Below, piece after piece: positions 5,540-47,341 of a stretch of 64,000 nt of DNA (position 1 is the stretch's first letter; each line of letters opens with the position of its first letter). The stretch lies in assembly GCF_900198195.1 (NCBI RefSeq), contig NZ_LT899436.1:2137001-2201000 (forward strand), in the 5' to 3' direction. The DNA comes from Tenacibaculum jejuense. GTDB lineage: Bacteria; Bacteroidota; Bacteroidia; Flavobacteriales; Flavobacteriaceae. A program made the position numbers and the translations under genes. The notes beneath the pieces were generated by a model that had not been told where the DNA came from, did no database searches, and saw only the letters and a program-made list of their open reading frames with translations.

Positions 5540-5568
5540 ATCATCAAAATTTTCAACCTTATAAACCA

Positions 5569-6225: not shown

Positions 6226-6253
6226 TACTTTAATATTTATTAAAAATAATATA

Positions 6254-6290
6254 AAAGTGGATTGATAATTAATTTATTAATTCACTTTTT
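6254..6290. terminator. Bidirectional hairpin between convergent glycan genes
   Basis: A 10-bp stem with one G-T pair (6254-6263 with 6279-6288) is followed by T-rich sequence on the plus strand. It lies between the methyltransferase and the convergent glycosyltransferase, overlapping the latter's stop codon. Confidence 0.6.
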
Positions 6291-7043
6291 CATTTTTTTT
6301 CTTTCCATTAATTTTAAATATTTAAGAACACTATATTCTGCGATATAAGTACTCCAAACATAGCCTTCATAACCGTTAAACATATTGCCTCTTATTACAT
6401 ATTCTTTAAAGAAAGTAAAGGGATATTTAAAAACTAAGAAAAGTAAGTTTACTCGTTTATTTTTTTTGAAGTACTCTTCTGAAACTAAAGATGCATACCT
6501 ATTTTTTTTTAAGTTTATTTGCTCAACTGAAGTAGCAGTATAATGATAGAAGAAATTTTTAAATCGACCTTTTGAACCATTATACTCAACTGTTTCATGT
6601 ACTTTTTTATTAGAAAATTCAGCATGATTTTTATTAAATAGTCTTAGTACAGGAGTATTTTTCAAGTATCCATATTCAAATACTTTTCCTAAATACACAT
6701 GTTTTCTATTTAAAAAGTAAGCTTTATGAGGAACAGTATCCTGATTAAATTCTAACTTTATCTCATCAATTAAATCATTTGTCAATACTTCATCAGCATC
6801 AATAGATAATACCCAATCGTAAGTACACTTACTTACCAAGTATCGTTTTTGTTCACCATAACCATTAAACTTTTTTTGAAATACTTTTGCTCCAAAAGAT
6901 TCACATATTTCTAATGTTGCATCACTACTGTATGAATCAATAACTACAATTTCATCACACCAGACTAATTTTTCTAATGTACGAGCTATATTTTCCTCTT
7001 CATTAAAAGTAATAAGTGCAGCACTAATTTTATGTTTATGCAT
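6282..7043 (-). CDS. Glycosyltransferase family 2, WaaE/KdtX-like
   Basis: Likely LPS-core glycosyltransferase. The opening ISAALITFNEEENIARTLE, the segment VVIDSYSSDATLEIC and the DxD motif in WVLSIDADEVLT match the WaaE/KdtX group, which adds glucose or heptose residues to the inner core. The C-terminal half has the family's aromatic-rich region around FFYHYTATSVEQI. It is convergent with the glycan operon and divergent from tsaC. The family call is firm; the WaaE-like role is by similarity. Confidence 0.85.
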   Translation of the reverse strand: MHKHKISAALITFNEEENIARTLEKLVWCDEIVVIDSYSSDATLEICESFGAKVFQKKFNGYGEQKRYLVSKCTYDWVLSIDADEVLTNDLIDEIKLEFNQDTVPHKAYFLNRKHVYLGKVFEYGYLKNTPVLRLFNKNHAEFSNKKVHETVEYNGSKGRFKNFFYHYTATSVEQINLKKNRYASLVSEEYFKKNKRVNLLFLVFKYPFTFFKEYVIRGNMFNGYEGYVWSTYIAEYSVLKYLKLMERKKMKK

Positions 7044-7172
7044 TCATATAGTTTTACTATAACAAACATAATGTAAATTAGCGGTTTTAAGTAATATAAT
7101 TTCTGTATCGTCAGATATAATTTACGAAAGGATTTTTTTAAGAAATAAACCTTCATTTTTTTGAATGAGATT

Positions 7173-7724
7173 ATGATAATAAAAGAAGTTGTAAACGAGT
7201 TAATTAAAGGTAAAACCATATTATATCCAACAGATACAGTATGGGGACTAGGATGTGATGCTACAAATGTTGAAGCAGTACAAGAGATTTATAAAATTAA
7301 AAATAGAGAAGAAAGTAAAAGTTTAATTGTTTTGGTAAGTTCTTTTGAAATGTTAGAACAATATGTTACAGTACCTCATGTTGCCAAAGAAATACTTGAA
7401 AAAGCAGTAAAACCAACAACAATAATTTACCAAAACCCAAAAGGTATAGCTAAGAATATCATTAATAAAGAAGATAACACACTTGCTATTCGTATAGCTC
7501 AAGATGAATTTTGTAAAGAGTTGATAGATACATTTGCTAAGCCAATAGTATCTACATCAGCAAATGTTAGTGGAAATCCTACTCCTAAATCTTTTTCTGA
7601 AATAGAACAGTCTATTTTGGATGATGTTGATTATATAGTAAATTTGCATCAAAATAAAGTATCAGAAAAATCGTCAACGATACTAAAATTAGAAGGAGAA
7701 AAAGTAATAGTGATACGAGAATAG
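7173..7724 (+). CDS. tsaC: L-threonylcarbamoyladenylate synthase
   Basis: Makes threonylcarbamoyl-AMP for the t6A37 modification of ANN-decoding tRNAs. The YrdC/Sua5 fold is shown by the N-terminal [21 protein letters not shown], by [17 protein letters not shown] and by the nucleotide-binding [15 protein letters not shown]. Its length of about 183 residues is that of the single-domain TsaC/YwlC form, without the Sua5 C-terminal domain. The ATG at 7173 fits homologues better than an in-frame TTG at 7161. cca follows five bases later. Its partner TsaE is also in this window (45383-45790). Confidence 0.94.
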
Positions 7725-7729
7725 AGTTT

Positions 7730-9160
7730 ATGCAGGATCAATTTTTTAAAGAAGCACTTACACATAAAGTATTTGAATATATAACCGAGGCTACAGATCA
7801 ACTTGGCTTAGATAGTTATGTCATTGGAGGTTTTGTCCGTGATTTTATTTTAAAACGCGGAAATGCTAAAGATATAGATGTTGTAACTATAGGTAGTGGT
7901 ATAGAGTTAGCACAAAAAGTTGCTAGTTTATTGCCAAACAAACCTAAGGTTCAAGTCTTTAAAACCTACGGAACGGCTATGTTACGTTATAATGACATAG
8001 AAGTTGAATTTGTAGGAGCAAGAAAAGAGTCTTACACAGAGGAGAGTAGAAATCCAGAAGTTTCTGTGGGAACACTCCAAGACGACCAAGACAGGCGAGA
8101 TTTTACAATTAATGCTTTAGCGTTAAGCCTAAATGCAAAATCTTTTGGAAAATTGCTTGATCCTTTCGATGGTATCGGTGATTTAGAACGAAAAATTATT
8201 AAAACTCCTCTAGATCCAGATATTACGTATTCAGATGATCCTTTACGTATGATGCGAGCTATTCGTTTTGCAACACAATTAAACTTTACTATAGAAAAGG
8301 CTTCTTTAGATGCAATTAAAAGTAATGTAGAACGAATTAAAATCATTACTAAAGAAAGAATTGTAGATGAGATTAATAAAATAATGGCTTCGCCTAAGCC
8401 TTCAATAGGCTTTTTACTTTTAGAAAAAACAGGTTTATTAAATAAAATTTTACCTGAATTAATTGCTTTAAAAGGAGTTGAGGAAGTTGAAGGTCAGACT
8501 CATAAAGATAATTTTTATCACACTTTAGAAGTAGTTGATAATATTTCTGAAAATACAAACGATGTATGGTTGCGTTGGGCTGCTTTATTACATGATATAG
8601 GTAAAGCTCCAACAAAGAAGTTTGATAAAAGAAACGGCTGGACATTCCATTCTCATGAGTTTGTGGGGTCTAAAATGGTTTATAAATTATTCAAGCGTTT
8701 AAAAATGCCATTGAATAATAAAATGAAGTTTGTACAAAAAATGGTGTTACTGAGTTCTAGACCAATTGTATTGGCTTCTGAAGTAACAGATTCTGCTGTT
8801 CGTAGATTAATTTTTGATGCAGGTGATGATATCGATAGTTTAATGACATTATGTGAAGCTGATATCACGACTAAAAATCCTAAAAAATTCAGACGTTATC
8901 ATAAAAACTTTGAAATTGTTCGTCTTAAAATAAAAGAAGTTGAAGAACGAGATAGAGTTCGTAATTTTCAACCTCCAATTACAGGAGAAGAAATAATGAA
9001 AACTTTCAATTTAAAACCTTGTAGAGAAATAGGACAAATAAAAGAAGCAATAAAAGAAGCGATTTTAGAAGGAGAAATACCAAATGAATATGAAGCTTCG
9101 TATAACTTTATGTTGAAAAAAGCGAAAGCCATAGGTTTAACAGCACAAACAGAAATTTAG
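7730..9160 (+). CDS. cca: CCA tRNA nucleotidyltransferase / poly(A) polymerase family, HD domain
   Basis: Adds or repairs the 3' CCA of tRNA. The N-terminal polymerase-beta fold carries GGFVRD and the catalytic pair in DIDVVTIG (about residues 32-52), then the [10 protein letters not shown] motif and the [15 protein letters not shown] helix. A C-terminal HD phosphohydrolase domain has HDIGK (about 287) with upstream H. At 476 residues it has the length of the Bacteroidota HD-containing form. It is in an operon with tsaC upstream and a glycosyltransferase three bases downstream. Confidence 0.92.
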
Positions 9161-9162
9161 TA

Positions 9163-10206
9163 ATGAGAATAGTACAAGTAATCGACCAGTTAGGGTTAGG
9201 AGGAGCTGAAAGAGTTTGTGTAAATTTAACCAACTTACTATTTAGAAATGGAAATGAAGTGAAGCTTATCGTATTAAACGATAAAGGAGCTTTATTTGAT
9301 TTAATTGATGAAGGTGTAGATATGGTTCGTTTAAATAAAAACAAAGGAAAATTTAAAGCTTACAGACAATTTAAAAAGCATATTAAGAAAGATGATATTA
9401 TTCATATTCATATGCGAAATCCATATCGTTTTGTAAGAAAAGCTTTTTTATTTTTAGGAGGGAATCAACCTGTTATTTTACATGACCACTTTGGTAAAAT
9501 TGTTGTGAATCAGACAGTACCAAAGTTGTATAAATCACTTTTTAAACCTCATTTTTTTATAGGTTGTTCAGAATTACTTACAGAATGGGCTGTTAATAAA
9601 GTAAAACTAAAAAAAGATCGTGTTTTTTTAGTAAATAATTTTGTGCTTCATTATGAGACAAATTATAAAAATCATACACCTAAAGGATTGGTATTAGTTG
9701 GAAGTTTAAAAAAGGTTAAAAACCATAGCCTAGCTATGGATATAGCAAAAACTTTAGATAAAGACCTAACAATATATTGTCCGAGTTTAGAAGGAGGAGA
9801 AAAAGATTATTACGAATCTTTAGTAGCTCATATGGAGAAAATAAATTATAAAGATCGTATTCATTTTGTTACAGGTTGTAATAATGTTCAAACAGAATTA
9901 AAACAATATGAAATGGCTTTATTAACTTCTACTTCTGAAGGAGATCCTTTGGCTCTTGTAGAATATATGGCACAAGGATTACCATTTTTATGCTCAGATA
10001 TGGGAGAAGCTGTTAAGGTTGTGAAAAAACACTATCCAGAAATGGTTCAGGGAGATTTTGATGTCAATAATTGGGTCTCAAATTACCATAAAGTAAAAGA
10101 GATCCAATCTGAACAAATTGAATCTCTTTATAACGAACATTTTTCTTCTGATTTATATCTTGAAAAATATTTATCTATTTATAAGAAGTTTTTAGCATCA
10201 GTCTAA
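9163..10206 (+). CDS. Glycosyltransferase family 4
   Basis: GT-B fold transferase of 347 residues. The N-terminal MRIVQVIDQLGLGGAERVCVN is the typical acceptor-domain start with the GGAE loop; the C-terminal domain has LVGSLKKVKNHSLAMD and the E-x7-E region EGDPLALVEYM. It is co-directional with cca (two-base gap) although functionally unrelated, which suggests the surface-glycan cluster extends across tsaC-cca. Its 3' end overlaps the convergent ABC transporter gene by nine bases. Confidence 0.87.
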   Translation: MRIVQVIDQLGLGGAERVCVNLTNLLFRNGNEVKLIVLNDKGALFDLIDEGVDMVRLNKNKGKFKAYRQFKKHIKKDDIIHIHMRNPYRFVRKAFLFLGGNQPVILHDHFGKIVVNQTVPKLYKSLFKPHFFIGCSELLTEWAVNKVKLKKDRVFLVNNFVLHYETNYKNHTPKGLVLVGSLKKVKNHSLAMDIAKTLDKDLTIYCPSLEGGEKDYYESLVAHMEKINYKDRIHFVTGCNNVQTELKQYEMALLTSTSEGDPLALVEYMAQGLPFLCSDMGEAVKVVKKHYPEMVQGDFDVNNWVSNYHKVKEIQSEQIESLYNEHFSSDLYLEKYLSIYKKFLASV

Positions 10207-12036
10207 AGATTGTAATTCTACAAGTTTTGCATATTCACCTTTAGCTGCTAAAAGCTCTTCGTGTTTACCTTGCTCTACGATTCTACCTTCTCGCATTACA
10301 ACAATTAAATCTGCTTTTTGAATAGTAGATAATCTATGTGCGATTACTACAGAAGTTCTATTTTGCATCATATTTTCTAATGCAGATTGAACTATTTTTT
10401 CAGATTCGGTATCTAAAGCAGAAGTAGCTTCATCTAAAATCATAATTGGTGGATTTTTAAGCACAGCTCTAGCTATAGATAAACGCTGTTTTTGTCCACC
10501 AGAGAAGTTACTAGCACTATCTGCAATGTTAGTTTCAAATCCTTTCGAAGAATTTTCAATAAATTCTAGAGCATTAGCAACTTTTGTAGCAGCAATAATT
10601 TCTTCTTCAGTTGCATTCGGATTACCAACTTTTAAATTGTTTTCAATAGAATCATTAAATAATAAGGCGTCTTGAGTAACGATTCCTATTAAAGAACGTA
10701 ACGATTCTTTAGAAATGTCTTTTATATTATCATTATCAACAAATACTTCACCTTTATTTACGTCATAAAAACGCATTAAAAGATTAGCAATTGTAGACTT
10801 TCCACTACCAGACTGACCAACTAAAGCCACCATTTTTCCTTTAGGAATTTCTAAACTAAAATCTTTTAAAACATAATTATCTTGATATTTAAAAGAAATA
10901 TTTTTAAAACTAATTCCAGTCGTAAATGATTCTTTTTTGATAGGAGTTTCTATATCTAAAATCGGATTTACTTCATCTAAAACATCATAAATACGCTTTG
11001 CAGAAGCATCACCTTTTCTAATATTGGTAAAGATTCCGGCAATTGCTTTAGTAGGTTGTAAAATAGAGTAGAACATTACAATATAAGTGATAAATGACTC
11101 TGAATCAAATCCATTTGGTGACACTTCAGTGTTTGTTAATACAATTTTACCTCCATAGAGTAGAATAGCTAATACTGTTAACACACCTAAAAATTCACTT
11201 AATGGAGAAGCTAATTTTTGGCGATGAGTAACCTGTACATTTAAGTTTTCTTGCTTTTTTGTTGAACTTGAAAATTTTCTAAAAAAACGATTTTCAGCAG
11301 TAAAACCTTTAACTACTTTCAAACCAGCTATGGTTTCTTCCAATAAAGAAAGATAATTTCCACTTTCTTGCTGTGATTGTAAAGCTTTAGATTTTAATTT
11401 TTTTGTGGTCCAAGAAATTATTAAGCCAGATAATGGTAGGGTAATAAATACAAATAAAGTCAATTTATAACTCATTGAAAACATCACAATAAGTATAATG
11501 ACTATAGTCAATGGTTCCCTTACAATTCCCCCAAAAGAAGAAATAAAAGAGCCTTCTACAACTTGAATATCAGAAGTCATTCGTGACATTAAGTCACCTT
11601 TTTTTTGTTCTGTAAAATATCCAATAGGCAATGAGGTAATCTTTTTATATAAAGTATCTCGCATATCTTTTACAGTACCGTTTGATAGATATGCCATTTG
11701 ATATGATCCCAAGAAATAAAAAAGATTTTTAAAGAAGAATAATATTAATACACCTATAGCTATTACAAATAGAGTATTTACAGTTCCTTCTCGTTCTATA
11801 TACTGGGCAATTTCATAGTAGAAATTGTTTTTAATGTATTGAAAAATTTTTGTTAACCCTTCGTAAACAGGTTTTTCTACTTTTTTATCAGGACTAAATA
11901 ATATTGATAATACCGGTAAAAAAGATATTACGGTTAAAATATTAAATAAAGCATACAATACATTAAATGTGGTTGCGTATATAAATCTGTATTTATATGG
12001 CTTTACAAAAGATAAAATACGTTTAAAGTAGTTCAT
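10198..12036 (-). CDS. MsbA-like ABC exporter (fused permease and ATPase)
   Basis: Half-transporter that works as a homodimer in the inner membrane, probably flipping a lipid-linked sugar or lipid A core. An N-terminal type IV ABC exporter domain of six helices (residues about 15-340) is followed by an ATPase domain with Walker A GQSGSGKST (407-415), signature FSGGQKQR and Walker B IMILDEATSALD, and the H-loop IAHRLST. A lipid or glycolipid substrate is inferred from the family and from the surrounding glycosyltransferases. It overlaps the phosphomutase stop by one base and is co-transcribed with it. Confidence 0.88.
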   Translation of the reverse strand: MNYFKRILSFVKPYKYRFIYATTFNVLYALFNILTVISFLPVLSILFSPDKKVEKPVYEGLTKIFQYIKNNFYYEIAQYIEREGTVNTLFVIAIGVLILFFFKNLFYFLGSYQMAYLSNGTVKDMRDTLYKKITSLPIGYFTEQKKGDLMSRMTSDIQVVEGSFISSFGGIVREPLTIVIILIVMFSMSYKLTLFVFITLPLSGLIISWTTKKLKSKALQSQQESGNYLSLLEETIAGLKVVKGFTAENRFFRKFSSSTKKQENLNVQVTHRQKLASPLSEFLGVLTVLAILLYGGKIVLTNTEVSPNGFDSESFITYIVMFYSILQPTKAIAGIFTNIRKGDASAKRIYDVLDEVNPILDIETPIKKESFTTGISFKNISFKYQDNYVLKDFSLEIPKGKMVALVGQSGSGKSTIANLLMRFYDVNKGEVFVDNDNIKDISKESLRSLIGIVTQDALLFNDSIENNLKVGNPNATEEEIIAATKVANALEFIENSSKGFETNIADSASNFSGGQKQRLSIARAVLKNPPIMILDEATSALDTESEKIVQSALENMMQNRTSVVIAHRLSTIQKADLIVVMREGRIVEQGKHEELLAAKGEYAKLVELQSLD

Positions 12037-13745
12037 TAAACTCCTAACTGTTTTATAATTCGTTGGAGTTTTTCATCCAACTGTTTTCCAACTACATCTG
12101 CATTTTCAACTGTATCTAAAGAACCTTTTGTGCCGATGTAAAATTTAATTTTTGGTTCTGTACCACTAGGTCTACAAGCTACTTTAGTTCCATTTTCTGT
12201 TTCGTAAATTAATACGTTAGATTTCGGAATATCAATCGTAGTTTCTTCTCCTGTGATGATATTTTTTCGGATTGAAGTTTTATAATCATTTACAAATGTT
12301 ACTTTTTCACCATCTATTTCAGAAAGTGGATTGTTACGTAAATCGATTAACATTTGCTTAATTTCTTCAGCTCCTTGCATTCCTTTTTTAACTAGCGAAA
12401 CTAGTTTTTCTTTAAAGAAACCGTGTTTTACATATATTTTCAGTAATTCATTGTAGAAAGAACTATTTTCAGATTTTGCTTGAGCAGCAATTTCACAAGC
12501 TAATAGGGTAGAAGTTACAGCATCTTTGTCTCGAACAAAATCACCAACCATAAATCCGAAACTTTCTTCTCCACCACCAATAAAGTCTAATTCAGGATGA
12601 TCTTTAATCATTTTAGCAATCCATTTAAATCCTGTTAAACCAACTTTAGTTTCTACGCCGTAACTTTCAGCAATAACATTAACTAAATTGGTAGATACAA
12701 TGGTAGAACCGATAAATTGTTTTCCATTTAATAAACCTTTTTCTTTCCATTGGTTTATTAAAAAGTCGGTCATGACACTCATGGTTTGGTTACCATTTAA
12801 TAATTTCATGTTACCATCAGTATCACGAACAGCAATTCCTAAACGATCACAATCTGGATCTGTACCAATTACAATATCTGCATTTGTTTGATTAGCATAA
12901 TCAATAGCCATTGCTAAAGCTTCAGGTTCTTCTGGATTCGGAGATTCAACAGTAGGGAAGTCTCCATTAGGTTCGGCTTGTTCTTCAATAACATGAAGTT
13001 GAGTGTATCCAGCTCTTTTTAAGATTTCAGGAACCAGTTTTATTGATGTTCCATGTAATGATGTGAAAACAATTTTTAAGTTTTCTCTTCCTTTTACATC
13101 AAATGTTCCACTTTTTAATGAAGCATTCCAAAAAGCTTCATCAACTTCAGTTCCAATAAAGGATATTAGTTCTTCTTTTTTATTGAAGTTGATATCGTTA
13201 AATTCTAAATTATTTACTCCTGCTATAATTTCTGCGTCTTGAGGAGGAACTATTTGCCCACCATCAGTCCAATACACTTTGTAACCATTATATTCAGGTG
13301 GATTATGTGAAGCTGTTAAGACAATACCTGCATGGCAGTTTAAATGATTTACAGCAAAAGATAATTCTGGAGTAGGACGTAAGTCTTCAAAAACAAACGT
13401 TCTAATATTATTCGCAGAAAGTACATCTGCAACTAACTGCGCAAACTTTTTACTGTTATGTCTACAATCGTATGCAATTGCTACTTTAATTTCTTCACTT
13501 GTATACACTTTGTTTAAGTAATTACTTAAACCTTGCGTAGCTTTTCCTAAAGTATATTTGTTAATTCGATTTGTACCAGCACCCATAACACCTCGCATTC
13601 CTCCGGTACCAAATTCTGTGTTTTTATAAAATCTATCTGTAAGATCTTCTGTATTGTTATTTATTAATTCAGAAATTTCATTTCTTGTTTCTTCGTCGAA
13701 AGTATCAGTTAACCAAAGTTTGGCTTTACTTAAAATATCATTCAT
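12036..13745 (-). CDS. Phospho-sugar mutase (phosphoglucomutase/phosphomannomutase)
   Basis: Interconverts hexose 1- and 6-phosphates, supplying sugar nucleotides for the nearby glycosyltransferases. Alpha-D-phosphohexomutase superfamily in four domains: the catalytic phosphoserine lies in TASHNPPEYNGYK (S146), the Mg site in GTDPDCDRLGIA, the sugar-binding loop in GGGEESFGF and the phosphate-binding loop in CRPSGTEPKIKFY. Its 569 residues match the long PGM2/PgcA-like subgroup. Glucose versus mannose preference cannot be told from sequence. Confidence 0.93.
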   Translation of the reverse strand: MNDILSKAKLWLTDTFDEETRNEISELINNNTEDLTDRFYKNTEFGTGGMRGVMGAGTNRINKYTLGKATQGLSNYLNKVYTSEEIKVAIAYDCRHNSKKFAQLVADVLSANNIRTFVFEDLRPTPELSFAVNHLNCHAGIVLTASHNPPEYNGYKVYWTDGGQIVPPQDAEIIAGVNNLEFNDINFNKKEELISFIGTEVDEAFWNASLKSGTFDVKGRENLKIVFTSLHGTSIKLVPEILKRAGYTQLHVIEEQAEPNGDFPTVESPNPEEPEALAMAIDYANQTNADIVIGTDPDCDRLGIAVRDTDGNMKLLNGNQTMSVMTDFLINQWKEKGLLNGKQFIGSTIVSTNLVNVIAESYGVETKVGLTGFKWIAKMIKDHPELDFIGGGEESFGFMVGDFVRDKDAVTSTLLACEIAAQAKSENSSFYNELLKIYVKHGFFKEKLVSLVKKGMQGAEEIKQMLIDLRNNPLSEIDGEKVTFVNDYKTSIRKNIITGEETTIDIPKSNVLIYETENGTKVACRPSGTEPKIKFYIGTKGSLDTVENADVVGKQLDEKLQRIIKQLGV

Positions 13746-13765
13746 AGTTAATTAAAAAAGAGGTG

Positions 13766-14722
13766 TTATAAATTTATTTTTTCTTTGATTTTATAATGCT
13801 TCTGAAGTGGATTGCTTTTAATTATCAATTCTCCTAAAAAACCAGATAAAAATAATAGAGTTCCTAATACCATAGATGTTAACGCAATGTAGAACCAAGG
13901 ATTATCAGTAACTAATATTGTTTTGATTTTAGCGTATACACGATAAAGCTTAATGAGACCTATATAAAAAGCAGTTGTAAATCCAAATAAGAACATTAAA
14001 GAACCCCATAAACCAAAAAAATGCATGGGTCTCTTACCAAATTTAGATAAAAAAGAAATGGTAATCAAATCTAGAAGACCGTTAATAAAACGATCTACTC
14101 CAAATTTAGTCACACCATATTTTCTTGCCTGATGTTTTACTACTTTTTCTCCAATTTTTGAATATCCTTCATTTTTTGCCAATATAGGAATGTAACGGTG
14201 CATTTCACCACTAACTTTAATAGCTTTCACTACTTCATTTTTGTAAGCTTTTAATCCACAATTAAAATCATTTAATTGTAAGCCTGAAGTTTTTCGAGCT
14301 GCCCAATTGTATAGTTTCGAAGGAATATTCTTAGTTAAAACATTATCATAGCGTTTCTTTTTCCATCCAGAAATTAAGTCGAAATTTTCTTTAATGATTA
14401 GATTATATAATTCAGGAATTTCATCTGGATTATCTTGTAAATCTGCATCCATTGTAATGACAACATCTCCTTTAGCTTCACTAAAACCAGCATCTAAAGC
14501 TTGAGACTTTCCATAATTGCGTTGAAAACGTATCGCTTTAACTTCTTTGCTTTTTTCAACTAAATCTTGAATTACTTTCCATGAAGTATCTGTGCTACCG
14601 TCGTCAATAAAAATTACTTCATATAAAAAGTGATTGGATTGCATAACTTTTGCAATCCAATCATATAGTTCTTGTAAAGATTCTTCTTCGTTTAAAAGTG
14701 GTATTACTACCGATATATCCAT
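13766..14722 (-). CDS. Polyprenyl-phosphate glycosyltransferase (GT2, DPM1/ArnC-like)
   Basis: Transfers a sugar onto undecaprenyl phosphate at the inner membrane. The GT2 domain shows MDISVVIPLLNEEESL, FIDDGSTDTSW and the metal-binding MDADLQDNPDE, followed by SGWKKKRYDN and the LNDFNCGLKAYK segment. Two C-terminal membrane helices (about 232-258 and 273-300) are typical of the ArnC/GtrB/DPM1 type. It lies 20 bp upstream of the phosphomutase and is probably in one operon with it and the ABC exporter. Confidence 0.9.
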   Translation of the reverse strand: MDISVVIPLLNEEESLQELYDWIAKVMQSNHFLYEVIFIDDGSTDTSWKVIQDLVEKSKEVKAIRFQRNYGKSQALDAGFSEAKGDVVITMDADLQDNPDEIPELYNLIIKENFDLISGWKKKRYDNVLTKNIPSKLYNWAARKTSGLQLNDFNCGLKAYKNEVVKAIKVSGEMHRYIPILAKNEGYSKIGEKVVKHQARKYGVTKFGVDRFINGLLDLITISFLSKFGKRPMHFFGLWGSLMFLFGFTTAFYIGLIKLYRVYAKIKTILVTDNPWFYIALTSMVLGTLLFLSGFLGELIIKSNPLQKHYKIKEKINL

Positions 14723-37369: not shown

Positions 37370-38083
37370 TTATAAAGGGATAAAGGCTTGAATTTTATAA
37401 AATTCATCAGCATTTAAATTGTCATTAGAAATATTTGGTCCGAATGCAAAACGAAACCAAACTCCATTATTAAGTGTTGCTTTTACATAGCCACCTAAGA
37501 ACTGATATAAAGTTTTTGTATCTCCACTATCAACTCTAGTTTGTCCTAAATGCTCATAAAATCCTCCAAAAGAAAAAGAGTCACTCACTTTAAAACCAGG
37601 AATTACCCAGTTTAACATTAAATCTTGTGAGCTTCCTTCACCGCGTAAACTCATATAATACGCGTGATAGGTTTCAAATTCGAATCTTCCTGAATTATAT
37701 ACCGCAAAGAGACTAGGAATTAAACTTTCTGCAATTTTAGTTCCAGCGGTTTGAGATAATAACTTTCCATGTCCGAAACCTAAACTAGGATTTACAAACA
37801 GTTTACCATCTTTAGAAGTAAAACCTAAACCAACACCAGTTTCTAGAAATAAATCTTTTCCTTGATTTCCAAAAGAAGGATTTACCCAAAAAACACTATA
37901 AAAAGTTAATTTCGTTTTGGGTTTAAGTTCATATGAACCTAAGAATACATTATTGAATCCGGCTCCACTATTGTGAATAGGCATAATAGCAAAAGAAGTT
38001 TTCGATTTTTTTTCTTCTTCTTGAGCAAAAATGGAAGCGATTGATAAACAAAAAATTGTGATAAAAATGATTGATTTTTTCAT
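37370..38083 (-). CDS. Secreted barrel-like protein of the adenylation/reductase cluster
   Basis: Protein of 237 residues with a signal peptide ending ASIFAQ. The mature part consists of amphipathic strands (NVFLGSYELKPKTKLTFYSVFWVNPSF, FLETGVGLGFTS, FRFAFGPN) and ends in FIPL, consistent with an outer-membrane barrel. It is the last gene of a minus-strand run with enoyl-CoA hydratase, membrane reductase and adenylation genes, with a 19-bp gap to the hydratase. I do not recognise a named family with certainty; a transport or sensing role for the cluster's product is a guess. Confidence 0.65.
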   Translation of the reverse strand: MKKSIIFITIFCLSIASIFAQEEEKKSKTSFAIMPIHNSGAGFNNVFLGSYELKPKTKLTFYSVFWVNPSFGNQGKDLFLETGVGLGFTSKDGKLFVNPSLGFGHGKLLSQTAGTKIAESLIPSLFAVYNSGRFEFETYHAYYMSLRGEGSSQDLMLNWVIPGFKVSDSFSFGGFYEHLGQTRVDSGDTKTLYQFLGGYVKATLNNGVWFRFAFGPNISNDNLNADEFYKIQAFIPL

Positions 38084-38102: not shown

Positions 38103-38861
38103 TTAATTAAAATTTGGAGTTCTTTTTTCTAAAAAGGCGCTCATGCCTTCAGTTTGATTTTGAGTATGAAATAAAGAATGAAACAGCTTTCTTTCGAATA
38201 CAATTCCGTCTTTTAAACTACTCTCTAAAGCTTGATTTGTAGCTTCTTTTGCAGCTTTTAATGCTGTTTTAGAATATGAAGCAATTAAGTGTGCTTTTTT
38301 AATAATTTGCTTTGTAAAATTCTCTTTAGGCAGAACTTGAGTAATAAGTCCGATTTTCTCTGCTTCCTCGGCGTTAATTGTCTTTCCGGTTAAAATGATT
38401 TCCATGGCTTTAGATTTTCCAACAAGTTTTGTTAATCGTTGAGTTCCACCAATACCTGGAATAACCCCTAGTTTGATTTCAGGCTGACCAAATTGTGCAT
38501 TTTCAGAAGCATAAATAATATCACACATCATGGCAAGTTCACATCCGCCACCAAAGGCATAACCATTTACCGCAGCGATTATAGGAGTTTTAATGCGTGA
38601 AAAAATTTCCCAATACCCAAAATAATCTTCATTAAACATTGCTGTGAAATCTTTTTCAGCCATTTCTTTAATGTCAGCTCCGGCACAAAAAGCTTTTTTA
38701 TTTCCTGTGATTATGATACAGCCAATTTCTGGGGATTTATCATACTCTAATAATCCAGAAATTAGTTCATGCATAAGTTCTGAATTCAGTGCATTAAGTG
38801 CCTTAGGACGGTTTAATTTGGCAATAACGATCCTATCTATTTTTTCAAATAGTACATTCAT
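38103..38861 (-). CDS. Enoyl-CoA hydratase/isomerase family protein
   Basis: Crotonase-fold enzyme of 252 residues. The oxyanion loop is FCAGADIKEMAEKDF, then AAVNGYAFGGGCELAMMCDIIYASENAQFGQPEIKLGVIPGIGGTQRL, which has both conserved glutamates of true enoyl-CoA hydratases (CEL, PEI), and a C-terminal helix with FHTQNQTEGMSAFLEKR. It is closest to short-chain enoyl-CoA hydratase (PaaF/Ech type). Its position beside an adenylation gene suggests it may work on the same acyl substrate, but it could also be ordinary beta-oxidation. Confidence 0.9.
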   Translation of the reverse strand: MNVLFEKIDRIVIAKLNRPKALNALNSELMHELISGLLEYDKSPEIGCIIITGNKKAFCAGADIKEMAEKDFTAMFNEDYFGYWEIFSRIKTPIIAAVNGYAFGGGCELAMMCDIIYASENAQFGQPEIKLGVIPGIGGTQRLTKLVGKSKAMEIILTGKTINAEEAEKIGLITQVLPKENFTKQIIKKAHLIASYSKTALKAAKEATNQALESSLKDGIVFERKLFHSLFHTQNQTEGMSAFLEKRTPNFN

Positions 38862-38882: not shown

Positions 38883-40196
38883 TTAAGAGTCCCAAATAGC
38901 TCCGTAAGCTGGAATTCCTCGGTATTCCATATTATGAACTACTTTTTGCGTTAAACTCTGATTAGAAATACAGATTACAGCTTCAGCATTAAAATCTTTA
39001 TAAGCCTTATAAGCAAGTTTTACCAAATCAGGTTTTCCATGTTCATCTGTATTCCAAATAATAGCATTAGGTTGTACATTTTTAATCTCATTTACTAATG
39101 CTTCTCCGTATGTTTTTTCAGGAGATCGAGTAGACCAAATTAAAACGGAAGGAGTTTCATTAAGTAATAAATGTGGTAAACACGGACCAATACCGCTTCC
39201 TGTGGCAACCCAAATTACTTTTTTAAATAATTTATCTACATTTCCAACACCTGCTGTAGGAATTCCTTTCACCCAAATTTTATTAGGCTTTTCGGAAATA
39301 AATTTCCCAGTCCAATCTCCAGCTCTAGAAATAGTTAAACGAAAACCAGTTTTATCGGGAGCAGGAACATTTGCAAATGAATGCCATTCTAGTAGCGGAT
39401 TTCTGCTCAATGCTGTAGATGAACCAGCAAAAGGTGTAACTCCGTAATCGAAACTAGTTAAGGCAACGTGATTAGAAGGACTATCGATATTGATATCTAC
39501 TTTTTTCAATCGTAACCACGGAATTATTACACTTGCGGTTAGAACAATTAAAATCCAAAAATCTAATTTATTCCACAAAGGAATTGAAGGAGATTCTAGT
39601 CGTACAAATAATAACATTTGAACCCAGAATAATATTAAAACTGACCAACCACCAATTCTGTGAGTAATTTCGAACTGATTGTGATATTTGGCTCTCATTT
39701 TTGGCAAAGCCATAATTACAATAGTAACTAATAATACCAAGATGAGTGTGGTAATAATTACTATAGGATTATTGATTTGATATACATTGTTAGATAAACT
39801 CTTATAAATTCCCCAAACAAACACAAAGTACCATAAAGTTCCCATAGTTGCACTAGAGCTGTGTAAACCGCCAAAATGATATACTTTGGCACAGATTCTT
39901 CGAATAAATAAAGGCCAATGTTTTGGAACACTCGTTGCTATGGTGAATAAAAGATTTATTACATATTGTTGTCGAATTAATATTGCAAGTGTAAAATTGA
40001 AAAGAATTACTCTAGAAATCTTATAAATTGCTATGCTTTCTGGATTAAACCAATTCCATGAAGTTAATCCTTTGTAAAAAACGATACCGTTTATTAACGT
40101 GATTAAAATAAATAATCTTTTGTAGGGAATAAGCAAAGGATGTTTTCCTAATCGATATAGAAAACTCTTTTTAGGTGGTAAAATTATCGTATTCAT
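38883..40196 (-). CDS. Membrane protein with six-helix domain and ferredoxin-reductase-like C-terminus (TmpL-like)
   Basis: Protein of 437 residues. Six or seven membrane helices (about 27-235) hold two conserved His pairs, YHFGGLHSSSATMG (H107, H112) and YHNQFEITHRIGGW (H172, H179), similar to the haem-ligating pattern of ferric reductase/NOX proteins. The C-terminal 190 residues resemble a ferredoxin-NADP reductase module: SRNPLLEWHSF (flavin region), GDWTGKF, ATGSGIGPCLPHL (nucleotide loop, 331-343) and the terminal YGAIWDS. This order matches the C-terminal two thirds of fungal TmpL. It starts six bases after the adenylation gene stop. The electron donor and acceptor are unknown. Confidence 0.75.
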   Translation of the reverse strand: MNTIILPPKKSFLYRLGKHPLLIPYKRLFILITLINGIVFYKGLTSWNWFNPESIAIYKISRVILFNFTLAILIRQQYVINLLFTIATSVPKHWPLFIRRICAKVYHFGGLHSSSATMGTLWYFVFVWGIYKSLSNNVYQINNPIVIITTLILVLLVTIVIMALPKMRAKYHNQFEITHRIGGWSVLILFWVQMLLFVRLESPSIPLWNKLDFWILIVLTASVIIPWLRLKKVDINIDSPSNHVALTSFDYGVTPFAGSSTALSRNPLLEWHSFANVPAPDKTGFRLTISRAGDWTGKFISEKPNKIWVKGIPTAGVGNVDKLFKKVIWVATGSGIGPCLPHLLLNETPSVLIWSTRSPEKTYGEALVNEIKNVQPNAIIWNTDEHGKPDLVKLAYKAYKDFNAEAVICISNQSLTQKVVHNMEYRGIPAYGAIWDS

Positions 40197-40202
40197 GATG
40201 TC

Positions 40203-41834
40203 TTATTTTAAGTAGGAAGTTCTAATTTTACGTTTGTCTATTTTACCTCTAGAAGTCTTCGGAAGTTCATCTAAAAACTTAAACTCACTTGGTACGTAAT
40301 AATATGGCAAATCTCTTTCTATGGCTTCAATTATATGGTTCAAAAGAGTTTCTGTTGCTCTTTGATCAATCAAACTAATAAAAGAAACCAAATGGTTTTT
40401 ATGTTTTAAAGTAACTGCTCGTTTCACTTCATTAAAGTTTTCGATGATTTTAGTTATAGCATCAAGTTCTACACGAAATCCTTTAATTTTCACCTGATCG
40501 TCAATTCTTCCATAATGAATTAATTCTCCATTTTCATCCCATCTCCCTAAATCACCAGTATTAAACATTATATTTTCTCCTTTCAAAAAAATGTCCTTTG
40601 CGTATCTAGTTTTATTTAGTTCATCGTTATTGATGTATCCTTTAGTAACACAATCGCCACCAGCCCACATTACGCCAACATCACCAACTTTAACTGGTTT
40701 TTTGTCATTATCTAATATATAAACAGTATTGTTTGGTGTTGGTTTTCCAATAGAAAGCTCATAACTGTTTGGAACGCATTTTTTCATGGTATTTACAATC
40801 GTAGTTTCTGTTGGTCCGCAACAATTGTAAAAATCACATTTCTTAGACCAAGTATTAGCTAAAATTACAGGACAAGGTTCTCCAGCTACTGCTACAGCTT
40901 TAATTTCATGACATTGTTCTGCATCTATAGAAGTAAGAATAGTAGGAGTGGCAATAATAACATTAGCTTGTTTTGCGGTTTCTTCAATATCTTTTCCACG
41001 GATAAGTAAAGTTCCCCCATTTCCTAAACAACCTAAAACTTCCCAAGCAGCCATATCAAAAGAAATATTTAAAATCTGTGCAACTTTTATTCCGGGAGAA
41101 ATACCAAGGTTACCTGGAGTATTATATAAGATATTACATAGGTTTTTGTGTGTTACTTCTACACCATTTGGAGTTCCAGTTGTTCCAGAAGTAAATAAAA
41201 TGAAGCAAGAATTGTTTGCATTATCATTCACATGATTAATTAATCGAATATTTCCATACAGATTTTTATAGATTTCTTTTTCTAATTCTATATCTATTTG
41301 AATTAGATCATCACTTTTGATAAAATCTAATTTTTCAGAATAATCCGATTGTGTTAAAATGATTTTAATATTACTAAGTTCAGTAATTTCACTAAGCATG
41401 TTTTTAGGAACTATTCTAGGATCTTGAGGAACATATACAGCTCTTAACTTTAAGACAGCTATAATTCCAATTAGCATTTCTAAAGAACGATGTGTGTATA
41501 AACCTACTTTATCACCTCTTTTTATTCCTTTTTGTTTTAAGATTAAAGCAAGTATTGTGGCTTCATCATCAAGTTGTTTGTATGTGATACTTAAATTTTG
41601 AAAAATTGCAGCAGTATTTTCAGGTGTTTTTGATGCCCAATATTCAAAAGCATGAATAACATTTTTGTATGGTGTTTCGGTTTTTGGAGCAATTCCATAC
41701 TCAACAAATAAGTTTTGATCTTCGGATGATAGGTGTTTAATTTCTTCTAAATTAATCTGTTCTTGTCGTAGATTGATTTCCTCTTTTAAAGCCAAAGAGA
41801 AGTTGTCATCATCATTGATAATTGATTTTTTCAT
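40203..41834 (-). CDS. Stand-alone NRPS-type adenylation protein
   Basis: ANL-family adenylating enzyme of 543 residues. Core motifs: A3 FTSGTTGTPNGV (214-225, with Asn where Lys is usual), A4 FDMAAWEV (259-266), A5 NCCGPTETT (337-345), A7 NTGDLGRW, A8 GRIDDQVKIKGFRVE (442-456) and the catalytic A10 lysine in SRGKIDK (K531). D260 occupies the position that binds the alpha-amino group in amino-acid-activating domains, so an amino acid substrate is likely. There is no carrier-protein or condensation domain. The N-terminal 55 residues are an extension. It is first in the run with the membrane reductase. Confidence 0.88.
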   Translation of the reverse strand: MKKSIINDDDNFSLALKEEINLRQEQINLEEIKHLSSEDQNLFVEYGIAPKTETPYKNVIHAFEYWASKTPENTAAIFQNLSITYKQLDDEATILALILKQKGIKRGDKVGLYTHRSLEMLIGIIAVLKLRAVYVPQDPRIVPKNMLSEITELSNIKIILTQSDYSEKLDFIKSDDLIQIDIELEKEIYKNLYGNIRLINHVNDNANNSCFILFTSGTTGTPNGVEVTHKNLCNILYNTPGNLGISPGIKVAQILNISFDMAAWEVLGCLGNGGTLLIRGKDIEETAKQANVIIATPTILTSIDAEQCHEIKAVAVAGEPCPVILANTWSKKCDFYNCCGPTETTIVNTMKKCVPNSYELSIGKPTPNNTVYILDNDKKPVKVGDVGVMWAGGDCVTKGYINNDELNKTRYAKDIFLKGENIMFNTGDLGRWDENGELIHYGRIDDQVKIKGFRVELDAITKIIENFNEVKRAVTLKHKNHLVSFISLIDQRATETLLNHIIEAIERDLPYYYVPSEFKFLDELPKTSRGKIDKRKIRTSYLK

Positions 41835-41998: not shown

Positions 41999-42724
41999 AT
42001 GAAAAAAATATTAATTATAGATGATGATAAGTCAGTTTTAAATCTTCTGAAAATTAACATCTTAAATAATGGTTATACAGCAGAATTAGCTGAAGATGGA
42101 CGCCAAGGACTAGACTTGGCAATGACTAATAATTATGATCTAATTCTTTTAGATATCACTTTACCTAAATTAGATGGAATAGAAGTTTGTAAAAGAATTC
42201 GCCAGAAAAAAGAAGTTCCAATTATCATGCTAACAGGCAAAACTGATGAATTGGATAAGGTTTTAAGTCTTGAATTTGGAGCAGATGATTATGTAACCAA
42301 ACCATTCGGAATTCGAGAATTAATGGCAAGAATTAAAGCTGTATTAAGAAGGTACGAATACAATTTTAATATAGATATACATAAAACTTTAGTTTTTGAT
42401 GATTTATCTATCAATATACCTAAGCGAATAGTCTACAAGAAAGAATCTAAAATTAATCTTTCTCCTAAAGAATTTGATTTGTTGACTTTATTTGTAAACA
42501 ATCCAGGAAAAATTTATAGCAGATCAACTCTTTTACAACTTGTATGGGGGTACAATTTTAAAGGATATACGCATACTGTAAATTCACATATAAATAGATT
42601 AAGGAGTAAAGTAGAATATGATATGACCAATCCTAAATATATTCTTACAGAATGGGGGATTGGTTATAAGTTTAATGATTCATTAACATCCTATTTAGAT
42701 GAGCAAATTCCAATCATTGTCTAA
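41999..42724 (+). CDS. OmpR-family response regulator
   Basis: Receiver domain (1-120) with the acidic pocket IIDDDKS, phospho-acceptor D52 in LILLDITLPKLDG, T in MLTGK and K in YVTKPFG; then a winged-helix DNA-binding domain (about 130-232) with LSPKEFDLLTLFVNNPGKIYSR and the recognition region HTVNSHINRLRSKVE. It overlaps the start of the histidine kinase by 26 bases. It is divergent from the adenylation/reductase genes and next to tandem direct repeats, so autoregulation and control of that cluster are likely. Confidence 0.93.
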   Translation: MKKILIIDDDKSVLNLLKINILNNGYTAELAEDGRQGLDLAMTNNYDLILLDITLPKLDGIEVCKRIRQKKEVPIIMLTGKTDELDKVLSLEFGADDYVTKPFGIRELMARIKAVLRRYEYNFNIDIHKTLVFDDLSINIPKRIVYKKESKINLSPKEFDLLTLFVNNPGKIYSRSTLLQLVWGYNFKGYTHTVNSHINRLRSKVEYDMTNPKYILTEWGIGYKFNDSLTSYLDEQIPIIV

Positions 42725-44201
42725 TAAGTTTGTTATAAAGCTAAGTTTCTCTTTTTTACTTACAATTTTAGTTATAGGTGTAATTTATATATCTATTACT
42801 TTTTTTTTGTTAGATAAATTTTACAGTCAGACCACACAACGATTAAATGCTGATATAGCCAATCATTTAATAGACGAAAAATTTAAAAATTCATCACCAT
42901 TTTTAGAAAATGGTAGTGTAAATATTCAATTGTTTGATGATGTAATGCATGATATGATGGCTGTTAATAGAGCTATTGAAGTGTATTTATTAGATGAAAA
43001 TGGATTTGTATTGCATTCTGTTGTTCTTGATCATGCTAATGCTACAGAAGAAATAAAACAAGTTGATTTAAGGCCGATTCATAAGTTTATAAATAATAAA
43101 GAAGAGTATATTTTAGGAGATGATCCTAAGAATATATTAGAAAAGAAAATTTTCTCAGCAGCGTCATTTGAAAGTTATGGAAAAGAAGGTTACATATACA
43201 TATTATTAGCTAGTCATGATTTTGAGCAAGTGTGTAGCAGTTTGTTTAAGTCTTATTTTTCAAAACTTACAACAAATACAATAATCATAACTACGCTGTT
43301 ATCGTTAATTATTGGCTGGTTGAGCGTTTTTTTAATATCGAAAAGTTTACTTGTAATTATACATCATGTTAACAAATTTAAAAATGGTGATTTTAAAAGT
43401 AGAATACCTAATGCATCTGCATCTAGTTTGTCTATTTTAGCTACTACCTTTAATACAATGGCAGATACCATTTCAGAAAACATAGAAGAGATTAAATCTG
43501 TAAATGACTTTAAAAAAGAACTTATAGCAAATATATCTCACGATTTAAGAACTCCTATGACAGTAATTCGAGGCTATGCTGAAACACTAACAGAAAAAGA
43601 GATTGTTATATCAGATGACAATAAAGAAGAGTTTTTAAAAATTATAGAAAAAAGTACACTTACCTTATCAAACCTAGTAGATCAATTGTATGAATATTCA
43701 AATTTAGATGCTAAACAATTAAAGCTTAATAAGACTGTTTTCAGTTTGAATAAATTAATTCATGACATTATTCGTAGTTATTGTGTTATAGCTATGAGAA
43801 AAAAAATAAAAGTCGAAAGGGCTTATAGTTTAAACGAGGATTTTTTGGTGTATGCTGATAAGGTTTTAATCCATAGAGTTATACAGAATATTTTTGATAA
43901 TGCACTGAAGTTCACTCCTAAGAAAGGAATAATCATTTTTTCATTGAATGTAATCAATAGAAATACAATAATTAGTATTAAAGATTCTGGACCTGGAATC
44001 AATCAAGATAATCAAAATTTTATTTTTGATCGATGGTACACTGCTGAAACAGATCAAAACAATGGACTAGGTTTAGGTTTAGCTATTGTGAAAAAAATAA
44101 TTGAATTACACGAAGCTAACATTTATATGTATTCAGATGAAAAAAATAAAGGATGTGAATTTAAATTCACATTACCAAATGTTACAGGATTAGTAAATTA
44201 A
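42699..44201 (+). CDS. Sensor histidine kinase
   Basis: Protein of 500 residues. A first membrane helix (about 14-37), a periplasmic sensor region of some 150 residues with no recognised fold, a second helix (about 193-215), a HAMP domain (216-268), the H-box NISHDLRTPMTVIRGYAE (phospho-acceptor H281), the N-box IFDNALKF and G-boxes DSGPGI and GLGLGLAIVKKI. It is translationally coupled to the response regulator by a 26-base overlap. Its 3' end overlaps the convergent ald gene by 20 bases. The signal sensed is unknown. Confidence 0.93.
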   Translation: MSKFQSLSNKFVIKLSFSFLLTILVIGVIYISITFFLLDKFYSQTTQRLNADIANHLIDEKFKNSSPFLENGSVNIQLFDDVMHDMMAVNRAIEVYLLDENGFVLHSVVLDHANATEEIKQVDLRPIHKFINNKEEYILGDDPKNILEKKIFSAASFESYGKEGYIYILLASHDFEQVCSSLFKSYFSKLTTNTIIITTLLSLIIGWLSVFLISKSLLVIIHHVNKFKNGDFKSRIPNASASSLSILATTFNTMADTISENIEEIKSVNDFKKELIANISHDLRTPMTVIRGYAETLTEKEIVISDDNKEEFLKIIEKSTLTLSNLVDQLYEYSNLDAKQLKLNKTVFSLNKLIHDIIRSYCVIAMRKKIKVERAYSLNEDFLVYADKVLIHRVIQNIFDNALKFTPKKGIIIFSLNVINRNTIISIKDSGPGINQDNQNFIFDRWYTAETDQNNGLGLGLAIVKKIIELHEANIYMYSDEKNKGCEFKFTLPNVTGLVN

Positions 44202-45793: not shown

Positions 45794-47341
45794 CTATTTA
45801 GAATTATATACAGCGCAAGGTATAATAATTTCTTCTAATGAAATACCTCCATGTTGATATGTATTTCGATAATATTTCACAAAGTGATTAAAGTTATTAG
45901 GGTACGCAAAAAATAAATCTTCTTTTGTAAAAATAAAAGGACTATTTATAGATATACTTGGTAGAAAAATATCTTTTGGATTCTTTACTTCGTAAACATC
46001 TTTATTTTCATAACTTAAACTTCGACCTGTTTTATATCTTAAGTTCGAACTAATGTTTTTATCACCAACTACTTTTGTGGGTGTATTACAATTAATAGTT
46101 CCGTGATCGGTAGTAATAATTAATTTTTGTCCTAGTTCTTTAGCCTTCTGAATTATTGATAAAAGAGGAGAGTTTTTAAACCAACTCACAGTTAAAGATC
46201 TATAGGCTTTATCATCACCAACCAATTCTTTTATTACTTCCATTTCGGTTTTAGCATGAGAAAGCATATCAACAAAATTATACACAACTACAGTAAGATC
46301 ATTTTGCTTGGTTCCATTATAATTTTCTTCTAATTCTTTCCCATTTTTAAGCGATGTTATCTTGTAGTACTCATGCTTGATATTAAGATTTAATCGTTTA
46401 ATCTGCTCAGTTAAAAATTCATTTTCAAACAGATTTTTTCCACCTTCATCGGTATCGTTTTTCCAATAGTTAGGATGTCTTTTTTCCATTTCAGAAGGCA
46501 TTAATCCAGAGAAAATGGCATTACGTGCATATTGTGTAGCTGTGGGAAGTATACTAAAGTAAGAATGCTCTGTTTCTTTTCTGTAGAAATTATTAATGTA
46601 AGGCTCTAATACTCTAAACTGATCATACCTTAAATTATCTATTACGACAACAAGTAGTCCTTGATCTTTACTTAAATTAGGAACAATAAGATCCTTAAAA
46701 AGTGTATGTGACATTGTTGGTTTGTCATCTCCAGTTAACCAATCTTCGTAATTCTTTTTAATAAATTTAAAGAAATGAGTATTTGCTTCTGATTTTTGAC
46801 TTTCTAAGATTTCTAAAAGATTAGAGTCATCTATGTTTTCTAGTTCTAACTCCCAGTGAATTAGTCTTTTGTATAGGTCAATCCACTCTTGGTATGAATT
46901 TACCATAGATAAATCCATAGATATTTTTCTAAACTCTTGCTGATAATTTAAAGTTGTTTTCTCCGTAACCAATCTAGAATGATCTAAATTCTTTTTTAAA
47001 CTCAATAATATTTGGTTCGGATTAACAGGTTTTATTAAGTAATCAGCTATTTTAGAACCTATAGCTTCTTCCATTATATATTCTTCCTCACTCTTTGTGA
47101 TCATTACTACAGGAAGATTAGCTCTCTTTTGTTTAATTAGATTCAACGCGTCTAAACCAGAAATTCCTGGCATGTTTTCATCTAAAAAAACAATATCAAA
47201 ATTCATATCATCAACTAAATCAACAGCATCAGTTCCATTCGTACACGTAGTAACTTTATAATTCTTTTTCTCTAAGAACAATATATGAGGTTTTAATAAA
47301 TCTATTTCGTCATCTACCCAAAGGATATCAATATTTCTCAT
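45794..47341 (-). CDS. porX: PorX, type IX secretion response regulator with PglZ domain
   Basis: Regulator of the type IX secretion system and gliding, partner of PorY and SigP in Porphyromonas. The receiver domain (1-120) has LWVDDEIDL, the phospho-acceptor D54 in IVFLDENMPG, and TK in MITKSEEEY with KP in LIKPVNPNQ. The C-terminal PglZ domain of the alkaline-phosphatase superfamily (about 205-515) has LVVVIDNLRYDQF with the nucleophile region and IITTDHGTINCNTP with metal-binding D-H. The crystal structure of the family showed a zinc phosphodiesterase. It is the first gene of the porX-tsaE-ald operon. Confidence 0.94.
   Translation of the reverse strand: MRNIDILWVDDEIDLLKPHILFLEKKNYKVTTCTNGTDAVDLVDDMNFDIVFLDENMPGISGLDALNLIKQKRANLPVVMITKSEEEYIMEEAIGSKIADYLIKPVNPNQILLSLKKNLDHSRLVTEKTTLNYQQEFRKISMDLSMVNSYQEWIDLYKRLIHWELELENIDDSNLLEILESQKSEANTHFFKFIKKNYEDWLTGDDKPTMSHTLFKDLIVPNLSKDQGLLVVVIDNLRYDQFRVLEPYINNFYRKETEHSYFSILPTATQYARNAIFSGLMPSEMEKRHPNYWKNDTDEGGKNLFENEFLTEQIKRLNLNIKHEYYKITSLKNGKELEENYNGTKQNDLTVVVYNFVDMLSHAKTEMEVIKELVGDDKAYRSLTVSWFKNSPLLSIIQKAKELGQKLIITTDHGTINCNTPTKVVGDKNISSNLRYKTGRSLSYENKDVYEVKNPKDIFLPSISINSPFIFTKEDLFFAYPNNFNHFVKYYRNTYQHGGISLEEIIIPCAVYNSK

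Follow-up and report, generated by a model that had tools for sequence, protein, structure and literature searches.

A bacterial split form of the fungal TmpL/TmpB enzymes and its candidate three-gene cassette in Tenacibaculum jejuense

In a 64,000-nucleotide stretch of the Tenacibaculum jejuense genome (RefSeq assembly GCF_900198195.1, contig NZ_LT899436.1, positions 2,137,001 to 2,201,000; hereafter the window), we find two adjacent genes, A and M, whose products appear to be a bacterial split form of the fungal TmpL/TmpB (NPS12) enzymes, a reading supported by NPS12-named proteins, by architecture and by published motifs. On balance, we favor the view that this enzyme works as a three-gene cassette, with an enoyl-CoA hydratase (ECH) as the third member and with the chemistry proposed below. 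We are highly confident of the homology to TmpL/TmpB and of the cassette, consider carrier-less activation of an amino acid likely, and offer the exact redox-hydration chemistry tentatively, as a possibility we would not count on. The three genes are as follows.

40203..41834, minus strand: A, carrier-less adenylation protein of the nonribosomal peptide synthetase (NRPS) type, 543 amino acids, with AMP-binding and AMP-binding_C matches and the pocket code DMWIAACIVK.
38883..40196, minus strand: M, membrane flavoprotein of the TmpA or TmpL C-terminal type, 437 amino acids, with a NOX-like reductase module and six helices by hydropathy.
38103..38861, minus strand: ECH, canonical short-chain enoyl-CoA hydratase (crotonase), 252 amino acids, with GGGCE and FGQPE.

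A first-pass annotation of the sequence had described an NRPS-type adenylation gene and a membrane redox gene six bases apart and had likened them to a split TmpL; both reading frames (40203-41834 and 38883-40196) are confirmed, and the likeness holds up. Since A and M are both long and conserved, M having 3599 relatives at E ≤ 0.001 among 8000 candidates scored, neither is a chance reading frame. Searching for longer chains containing M returned 36 proteins, all named as fungi (E ≤ 1e-62), of which 34 show 35-45% identity over 91-99% of M and several are named nonribosomal peptide synthetase 12. These long fungal forms are built as A-M, as A-A-M or, in Fusarium and relatives, as A-M plus an alpha/beta hydrolase domain, and some of the long ones may be merged gene models. 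At fusion length, 1344 proteins match M at E ≤ 0.001 among 7216 candidates; the best 43 of the 120 matches listed combine an AMP-binding domain with an M domain in 949-1029 amino acids, with owners such as Aquimarina and Fulvivirgaceae, and lower among the matches listed are a Pantoea entry and a Marasmius "nonribosomal peptide synthetase 12" at 45%. Fused A-M proteins occur in Bacteroidota, Gammaproteobacteria, Actinomycetota and fungi, and identity between the window M and the M domains of bacterial fusions reaches 62%. M thus aligns with NPS12-named proteins and with bacterial fusions, and a best alignment to unrelated families, the outcome named beforehand as speaking against the TmpL idea, was not found.

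The TmpL family has been described as an AMP-binding domain, six helices and an FAD/NAD(P) module without a thiolation (T) or condensation (C) domain, and in 2009 as confined to filamentous fungi (PMC2766074). A and M share with TmpL (Alternaria brassicicola, Aspergillus fumigatus) and TmpB (A. nidulans) this domain order and the lack of T and C domains, and M shares the GSGIGP motif; the pocket residues D, W, C, G, I and K listed for TmpB (PMC4804170) are like those of A. In Aspergilli, an ECH/isomerase gene is reported to adjoin tmpB, a parallel to the cassette that we know from the published sentence itself (PMC4804170). The differences are that TmpL/TmpB is one chain whereas the window has two, bacterial, chains; that a two-component system and a DUF6733 gene adjoin the window cassette; and that, by eye, the FAD motif RLHFD of TmpL/TmpB is not kept in bacterial M, which keeps a NOX-like EWHxF instead (the window M reads ALTSFD where the Marasmius NPS12, P0236, has RLYFD, and its EWHSF is conserved). 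TmpA of A. nidulans, paired with AfeA, is like M a stand-alone membrane flavoprotein beside an adenylating-enzyme gene, but AfeA is coumarate-ligase-like, unlike the NRPS-type A, and tmpA and afeA are inversely oriented.

In a quick 60-row tree of M, the fungal sequences form one group (SH-aLRT support 90) amid bacterial lineages, with the deep forks open, and the fused or split state changes nine times on the 50 rows scored (10 rows being unscored). Two tandem A domains precede M in the fungal proteins P0243, P0245-P0247, P0261 and P0275, with equal pocket codes where readable. The Fusarium-type alpha/beta hydrolase (P0262, P0265-P0270, P0272 and P0273) perhaps replaces the hydratase. The bacterial branch of the A domain is already on record, as stand-alone A domains of Hahella and Salinospora were placed in a ChNPS12/ETP clade (PMC2823734); these enzymes, carrier-less and grouped with NPS12, are likened to the window A by their description and probably belong to the same family. 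They are described as standalone, and the accessible part of that report mentions no adjacent membrane or ECH gene. Our search of the open-access literature, parts of papers included, found no report of the M partner of A, of fused bacterial forms or of the bacterial cassette.

A pattern scan of 84,980 species genomes yielded 258 loci, and the locus counts given here refer to the best 80 of these. A lies upstream of M on the same strand in 80/80 loci, which bears out the conservation of the pair across species. The two are fused in 20 loci, answering the call in the first-pass annotation to look for fused bacterial forms, and are otherwise separated by at most 306 bases between matches; fusion here means an open stop-to-stop frame, judged in the high-GC loci L080 and L084 by the missing stop alone. 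ECH comes next after M in 77 of the 80 loci. Among the other three, L050 and L061 end at a contig edge soon after M, and L055 has no ECH in 10 kb downstream. That locus, the one with ample downstream sequence and no ECH, continues (4937-14429) with what on reading appear to be a TonB-type receptor and cobalamin-pathway genes. Throughout the 1.52 Mb of cassette loci, no other ECH-like stretch was found at E ≤ 1e-10; ECH as a chance neighbor was rejected on these two counts. The loci span five phyla (Bacteroidota, Pseudomonadota, Chloroflexota, a cyanobacterium and Actinomycetota). Furthermore, whole-genome sampling added six actinomycete loci with contiguous A, M and ECH (L171-L176), and all seven of the actinomycete loci examined with flanks, out of eight, carry A-M-ECH (L170 is apparently L072 again). 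The two-gene unit of the first-pass annotation stands as a pair and falls short in extent, as ECH, the DUF6733 gene, the adjoining two-component system and the fused bacterial forms had been missed.

The cassette is rare and patchy, and probably mobile. Whole-genome samples contain M in 11/116 genomes of the genus, 4/299 of the family and 5/395 of the phylum, the window's own genome being counted each time and two of the phylum matches being weak non-orthologues. For the class of Streptomyces L078, M is present in 8/296 genomes at 51-56% identity to related M, most other matches in that sample being to the cyclic-nucleotide domain of the query; at E ≤ 1e-30, it is present in 1/369 genomes of the L044 class and 2/400 of the L039 phylum (center genomes counted in all three). 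Sequence distances computed for 73 of the 80 loci correlate at 0.89 for A-M, 0.71 for A-ECH and 0.66 for M-ECH.

In the window, the minus-strand order is A, M, ECH and the DUF6733 gene, with intergenic gaps of 6, 21 and 19 bases, and M is 98% identical to the M of several Tenacibaculum records. A and M share one reading frame, with one TAA and two codons between them. A read-through signal at this single in-frame stop was considered and rejected, and the shared frame is treated as chance, because the frame is not constant within Tenacibaculum (in L010 the M frame overlaps the end of A).

The window ECH aligns with the mitochondrial enoyl-CoA hydratase chain 1mj3 at 276 bits and with EchA8 at 305 bits, and it has both catalytic Glu motifs of the mitochondrial-type short-chain enzyme. 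Both motifs are found by pattern in 75/77 cassette ECH proteins (L011 is cut by a contig end, and the second pattern is unmatched in L059), and GGGCE and FGQPE are kept in the five inspected. The position of this gene might be no more than a relic of horizontal transfer of a housekeeping hydratase, and both its canonical sequence and the patchy, probably mobile cassette would fit. We nevertheless regard this as highly unlikely, because ECH lies next to M in loci of five phyla and forms an ortholog group separate from the genomes' other crotonases. When the window ECH was compared with nine genomes of different groups, the top match coincided in position with the cassette gene in all nine (54-67% identity, the next best reaching at most 49%). 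A quick ECH tree that includes 22 paralogue rows (two identical) groups 31 of the 34 cassette proteins in a single clade (SH-aLRT 98); the three outside it, from a Saprospiraceae and two actinomycetes, belong to another crotonase type that fills the same slot and retains both motifs. The ECH/isomerase gene reported beside tmpB in Aspergilli (PMC4804170) also speaks against a relic. We thus retain ECH as a cassette member.

With respect to A, matches to AMP-binding (5.7e-62) and AMP-binding_C mark a complete adenylation protein. Its best single-domain solved relative is GrsA PheA (250 bits), which is also the template reported for modeling TmpB (PMC4804170); the higher total of LgrA adds up two modules, and its better module scores 201. 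The core motifs FTSGTTGTPNGV, GPTET, NTGDLGRW, GRIDDQVKIKGFRVEL and RGKID are present with D260, W264 and K531, in line with the intact core and amino-acid-type D260 read earlier. The code DMWIAACIVK was taken from positions 260, 261, 264, 294, 315, 317, 338, 346, 347 and 531, which we presume to be the correct mapping from GrsA numbering. We counted these columns in 195 A domains: 125 protein rows, the window, and 69 locus rows from the 69 of 80 loci with a long enough A row. M261, W264, A317 and I346 occur in at least 98% and I294 and A315 in 91%, while position 338 is usually S, C, A or G, and V or I predominate at position 347. Of random column sets drawn from the whole domain, 0.3% reach the mean conservation of the eight informative pocket columns; of those drawn from the core, 0.8% do. 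The pocket is near-invariant in bacteria, and 30/39 fungal A domains fit DMW[IV]AA[SC]IVK.

The family scan of A gives AMP-binding and AMP-binding_C only, with no thiolation or condensation domain, so that the lack of a carrier domain noted in the first pass is upheld. Its likeness to GrsA PheA and to NRPS A domains could mean that A is an ordinary stand-alone loader charging the carrier of a distant synthetase, and the linkers of 60-146 amino acids in basidiomycete fused forms would in principle leave room for a small domain. We give this explanation very little credence and have rejected it: the genome of the window (4.6 Mb, single contig) encodes one PP-binding protein, of 78 amino acids and adjoining FabF, and the A-M linkers of 124 fused proteins (median 20.5 amino acids) contain no credible phosphopantetheine motif, the one pattern match lying in a low-complexity linker. 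The distant carrier-protein system that the first-pass annotation had set against its own idea was thus not seen, and carrier-less activation by A is preferred.

M ends in YGAIWDS and carries the nucleotide motif GSGIGP (ATGSGIGP), and its averaged hydropathy shows six hydrophobic clusters before residue 230 and one marginal point at 336. At the limits used, the window M matches no Pfam or NCBIfam model (two implausible matches have E values of 0.16 and 0.38). Pfam scans of 20 M proteins gave weak matches, to NAD_binding_1 in three and to Ferric_reduct in one (best E about 0.03), and the precomputed label of M relatives is PF26733. After alignment, 343 of 349 M rows remained, with redundancy, since some locus proteins recur as P entries. 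R75, R99, R168, H172, E176, R180, W184 and W227 never vary; H107 varies in one row and H112 in three. The only near-invariant histidines of the membrane half are 107, 112, 172 and 179, located before helix 3 and before helix 5, whereas His 19 is present in 197/343 rows and His 24 in 221/343. The paired histidines and the YGAIWDS end reported in the first pass are therefore recovered; of its ferredoxin-reductase-like membrane protein, the redox module stands, and the likeness to NOX/ferric reductases, with probably one haem site, had been missed.

For the passage of electrons across the membrane, NOX enzymes hold two stacked haems between histidines that are paired on helices 3 and 5 with a spacing of 13-14 residues. 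M resembles NOX2 in its six helices, in histidines near helices 3 and 5 and, as far as a weak profile alignment through EWHxF...GDWT (E 0.014) shows, in EWHxF and GDWT of the flavin module, but its four histidines lie in apparently one inner-face layer. A second stretch (1.7 bits) places H179 on the TH of NOX2 helix 5. Among 343 aligned M domains, we found no second conserved His pair further along helix 3 or 5, and M as a full two-haem NOX was rejected, the near-invariant histidines being confined to the four named. Because these look like a single layer, M likely binds one haem at most, and because it lacks the second pair needed in NOX, electrons probably stay at the inner face, where A can deliver its product.

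Variants of M include H179-less proteins (P0161, P0164, P0165, P0172-P0174, P0186, P0188, P0193, P0194, P0197, P0200-P0202 and P0211, which are 15 of 17 such rows); P0193, P0194 and P0197 lack H112 as well, and such variants are a natural test of the cofactor-binding histidines. Other proteins, for which no adenylation domain is listed, join M to a cyclic-nucleotide-binding domain (PF00027; P0212-P0218, P0220-P0230, P0233-P0235, P0237, P0238 and P0240), and the five such rows in the tree form one clade beside actinomycete M.

A role in redox homeostasis was proposed for TmpL, which is needed to control intracellular reactive oxygen in two fungi, deletion strains showing an enhanced oxidative burst (PMC2766074). 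Together with the NOX motifs in M, this could suggest that M is an electron-exporting NOX/ferric reductase or a peroxide-control enzyme whose regulatory ligand is supplied or recycled by A and ECH. We consider this fairly unlikely: M has no second conserved His pair for trans-membrane electron passage, conidia of A. nidulans tmpB deletions are reported to be insensitive to H2O2 and menadione (PMC4804170), and the intact hydratase and the nearly fixed amino-acid pocket would go unexplained. We retain the biosynthetic cassette as the preferred reading.

The cassette is flanked by the following genes.

37370..38083, minus strand: DUF6733 protein, 237 amino acids, with an N-terminal signal-like stretch by eye.
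41999..42724, plus strand: OmpR-type response regulator, divergent from A; a homologue adjoins the cassette in Tenacibaculum and four other lineages.
42699..44201, plus strand: sensor histidine kinase, whose presumed periplasmic domain (about residues 35-190) is common to cassette-adjoining kinases of four other lineages.

A DUF6733 relative follows ECH in 35/36 Bacteroidota loci, the 36th (L011) being truncated at a contig end. Our guess that this protein may be an outer-membrane barrel comes from a PagL match below threshold (E 0.067); we found no literature on DUF6733. In two Pleioneaceae loci, a TorF-type putative porin occupies the DUF6733 slot. Outside Bacteroidota, a survey of 44 loci (4 kb on each side) for a further conserved gene turned up mainly regulators. 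In five lineages, the cassette has beside it a two-component system whose sensor domain is shared: the regulator-kinase pair is present in 13/13 Tenacibaculum loci, and the periplasmic domain of the window kinase is similar to those of kinases in Lewinella (L049, 49%), Endozoicomonas (L044, 29%), Gynuella (L046, 28%) and a gammaproteobacterium (L047, 28%). The kinases sharing it lie upstream, downstream or reversed relative to the cassette. Four Micromonosporaceae loci (L058, L063, L069 and L085) have a regulator-kinase pair just upstream that is similar in the kinase core only; in each of the remaining matched loci, the match is a lone distant regulator, and the majority of the 80 loci have no match. 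By reading, twelve loci of Aquimarina and close relatives have a CRP-family-like regulator just upstream. Further off, at 45794-47341, lies the gene for the type IX secretion response regulator PorX (830 bits); homologues occur near the cassette in 13/13 Tenacibaculum loci, a genus-level synteny.

In the proposed pathway, A would adenylate one hydrophobic amino acid without a peptidyl carrier, and the activated acid would pass to CoA or straight to M. M would accept electrons from NAD(P)H, pass them via FAD to one haem (or another metal site) at the inner membrane face and there alter the activated acid, for example by introducing or removing a double bond; as in the first-pass annotation, we infer an adenylated amino acid that is reduced or modified at the membrane. 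ECH would add or remove water at the alpha-beta double bond of a thioester. The product would leave the cell, in Bacteroidota perhaps via the DUF6733 protein, and the neighboring kinase would control the cassette. Alternatively, A might move its aminoacyl group to a membrane lipid or amine, with M modifying the lipid-bound group and ECH serving a linked lipid step; in favor are that no peptidyl carrier was found in the window's genome and that M, a membrane protein, is in many species fused with A. We judge this unlikely, as the family scan detects an acyltransferase domain in none of A, M, ECH and the DUF6733 protein and we know of no crotonase that acts on lipids. The thioester route of the A-M-ECH cassette therefore remains our choice.

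Several points weigh against this reading. The usual substrates of ECH enzymes are CoA esters, and CoA ester formation by A is a supposition. The haem site of M is a sequence argument resting on a weak alignment, and H179 is lost in 17/343 M rows, three of which lose H112 as well, so that the H112/H179 pair is dispensable in some M proteins. The pocket code departs clearly in three ascomycete domains (P0257, P0263 and P0271); another six fungal domains are off code, P0260, P0262 and P0273 slightly and three by gaps. Because two of the three clear deviants belong to what we take to be the order of Alternaria, TmpL of that order may use another substrate. M also occurs apart from its partners: L055 has A-M with no ECH in reach, a Pantoea plasmid (L134, 7001-8263) carries M (46%) with no A or ECH within its 7-kb flanks, and cyanobacterial plasmids (L135 and L136, 7001-8218) carry a remote M (31-32%) with no A or ECH in the flanks. 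In addition, the distance correlations drop to 0.57, 0.46 and 0.26 among distant pairs, and any operon that travels as a unit would be expected to show such correlations. The scan favored close relatives of the window's M, with 178 of the 258 matches outside the counts, the carrier count covers the window's genome, and the M and ECH trees are both quick ones, the latter with long-branch warnings.

TmpL and TmpB are reported as needed for normal fungal sporulation, and TmpL for infection, with no product named in the parts of the reports available (PMC2766074 and PMC4804170). As a speculation that we consider rather doubtful, A-M-ECH could be an ancient pathway common to bacteria and fungi whose product in both is one small extracellular signal derived from an amino acid, formed through carrier-less activation, desaturation at the membrane and hydration, with the adjacent kinase as the receptor or feedback sensor of this signal in several bacteria. 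Five bacterial phyla have the machinery, in split and fused forms, together with a third enzyme and a nearly fixed pocket. The question of what fungal TmpL makes would thereby become answerable in culturable bacteria, in which one short gene set can be deleted and the missing compound sought.

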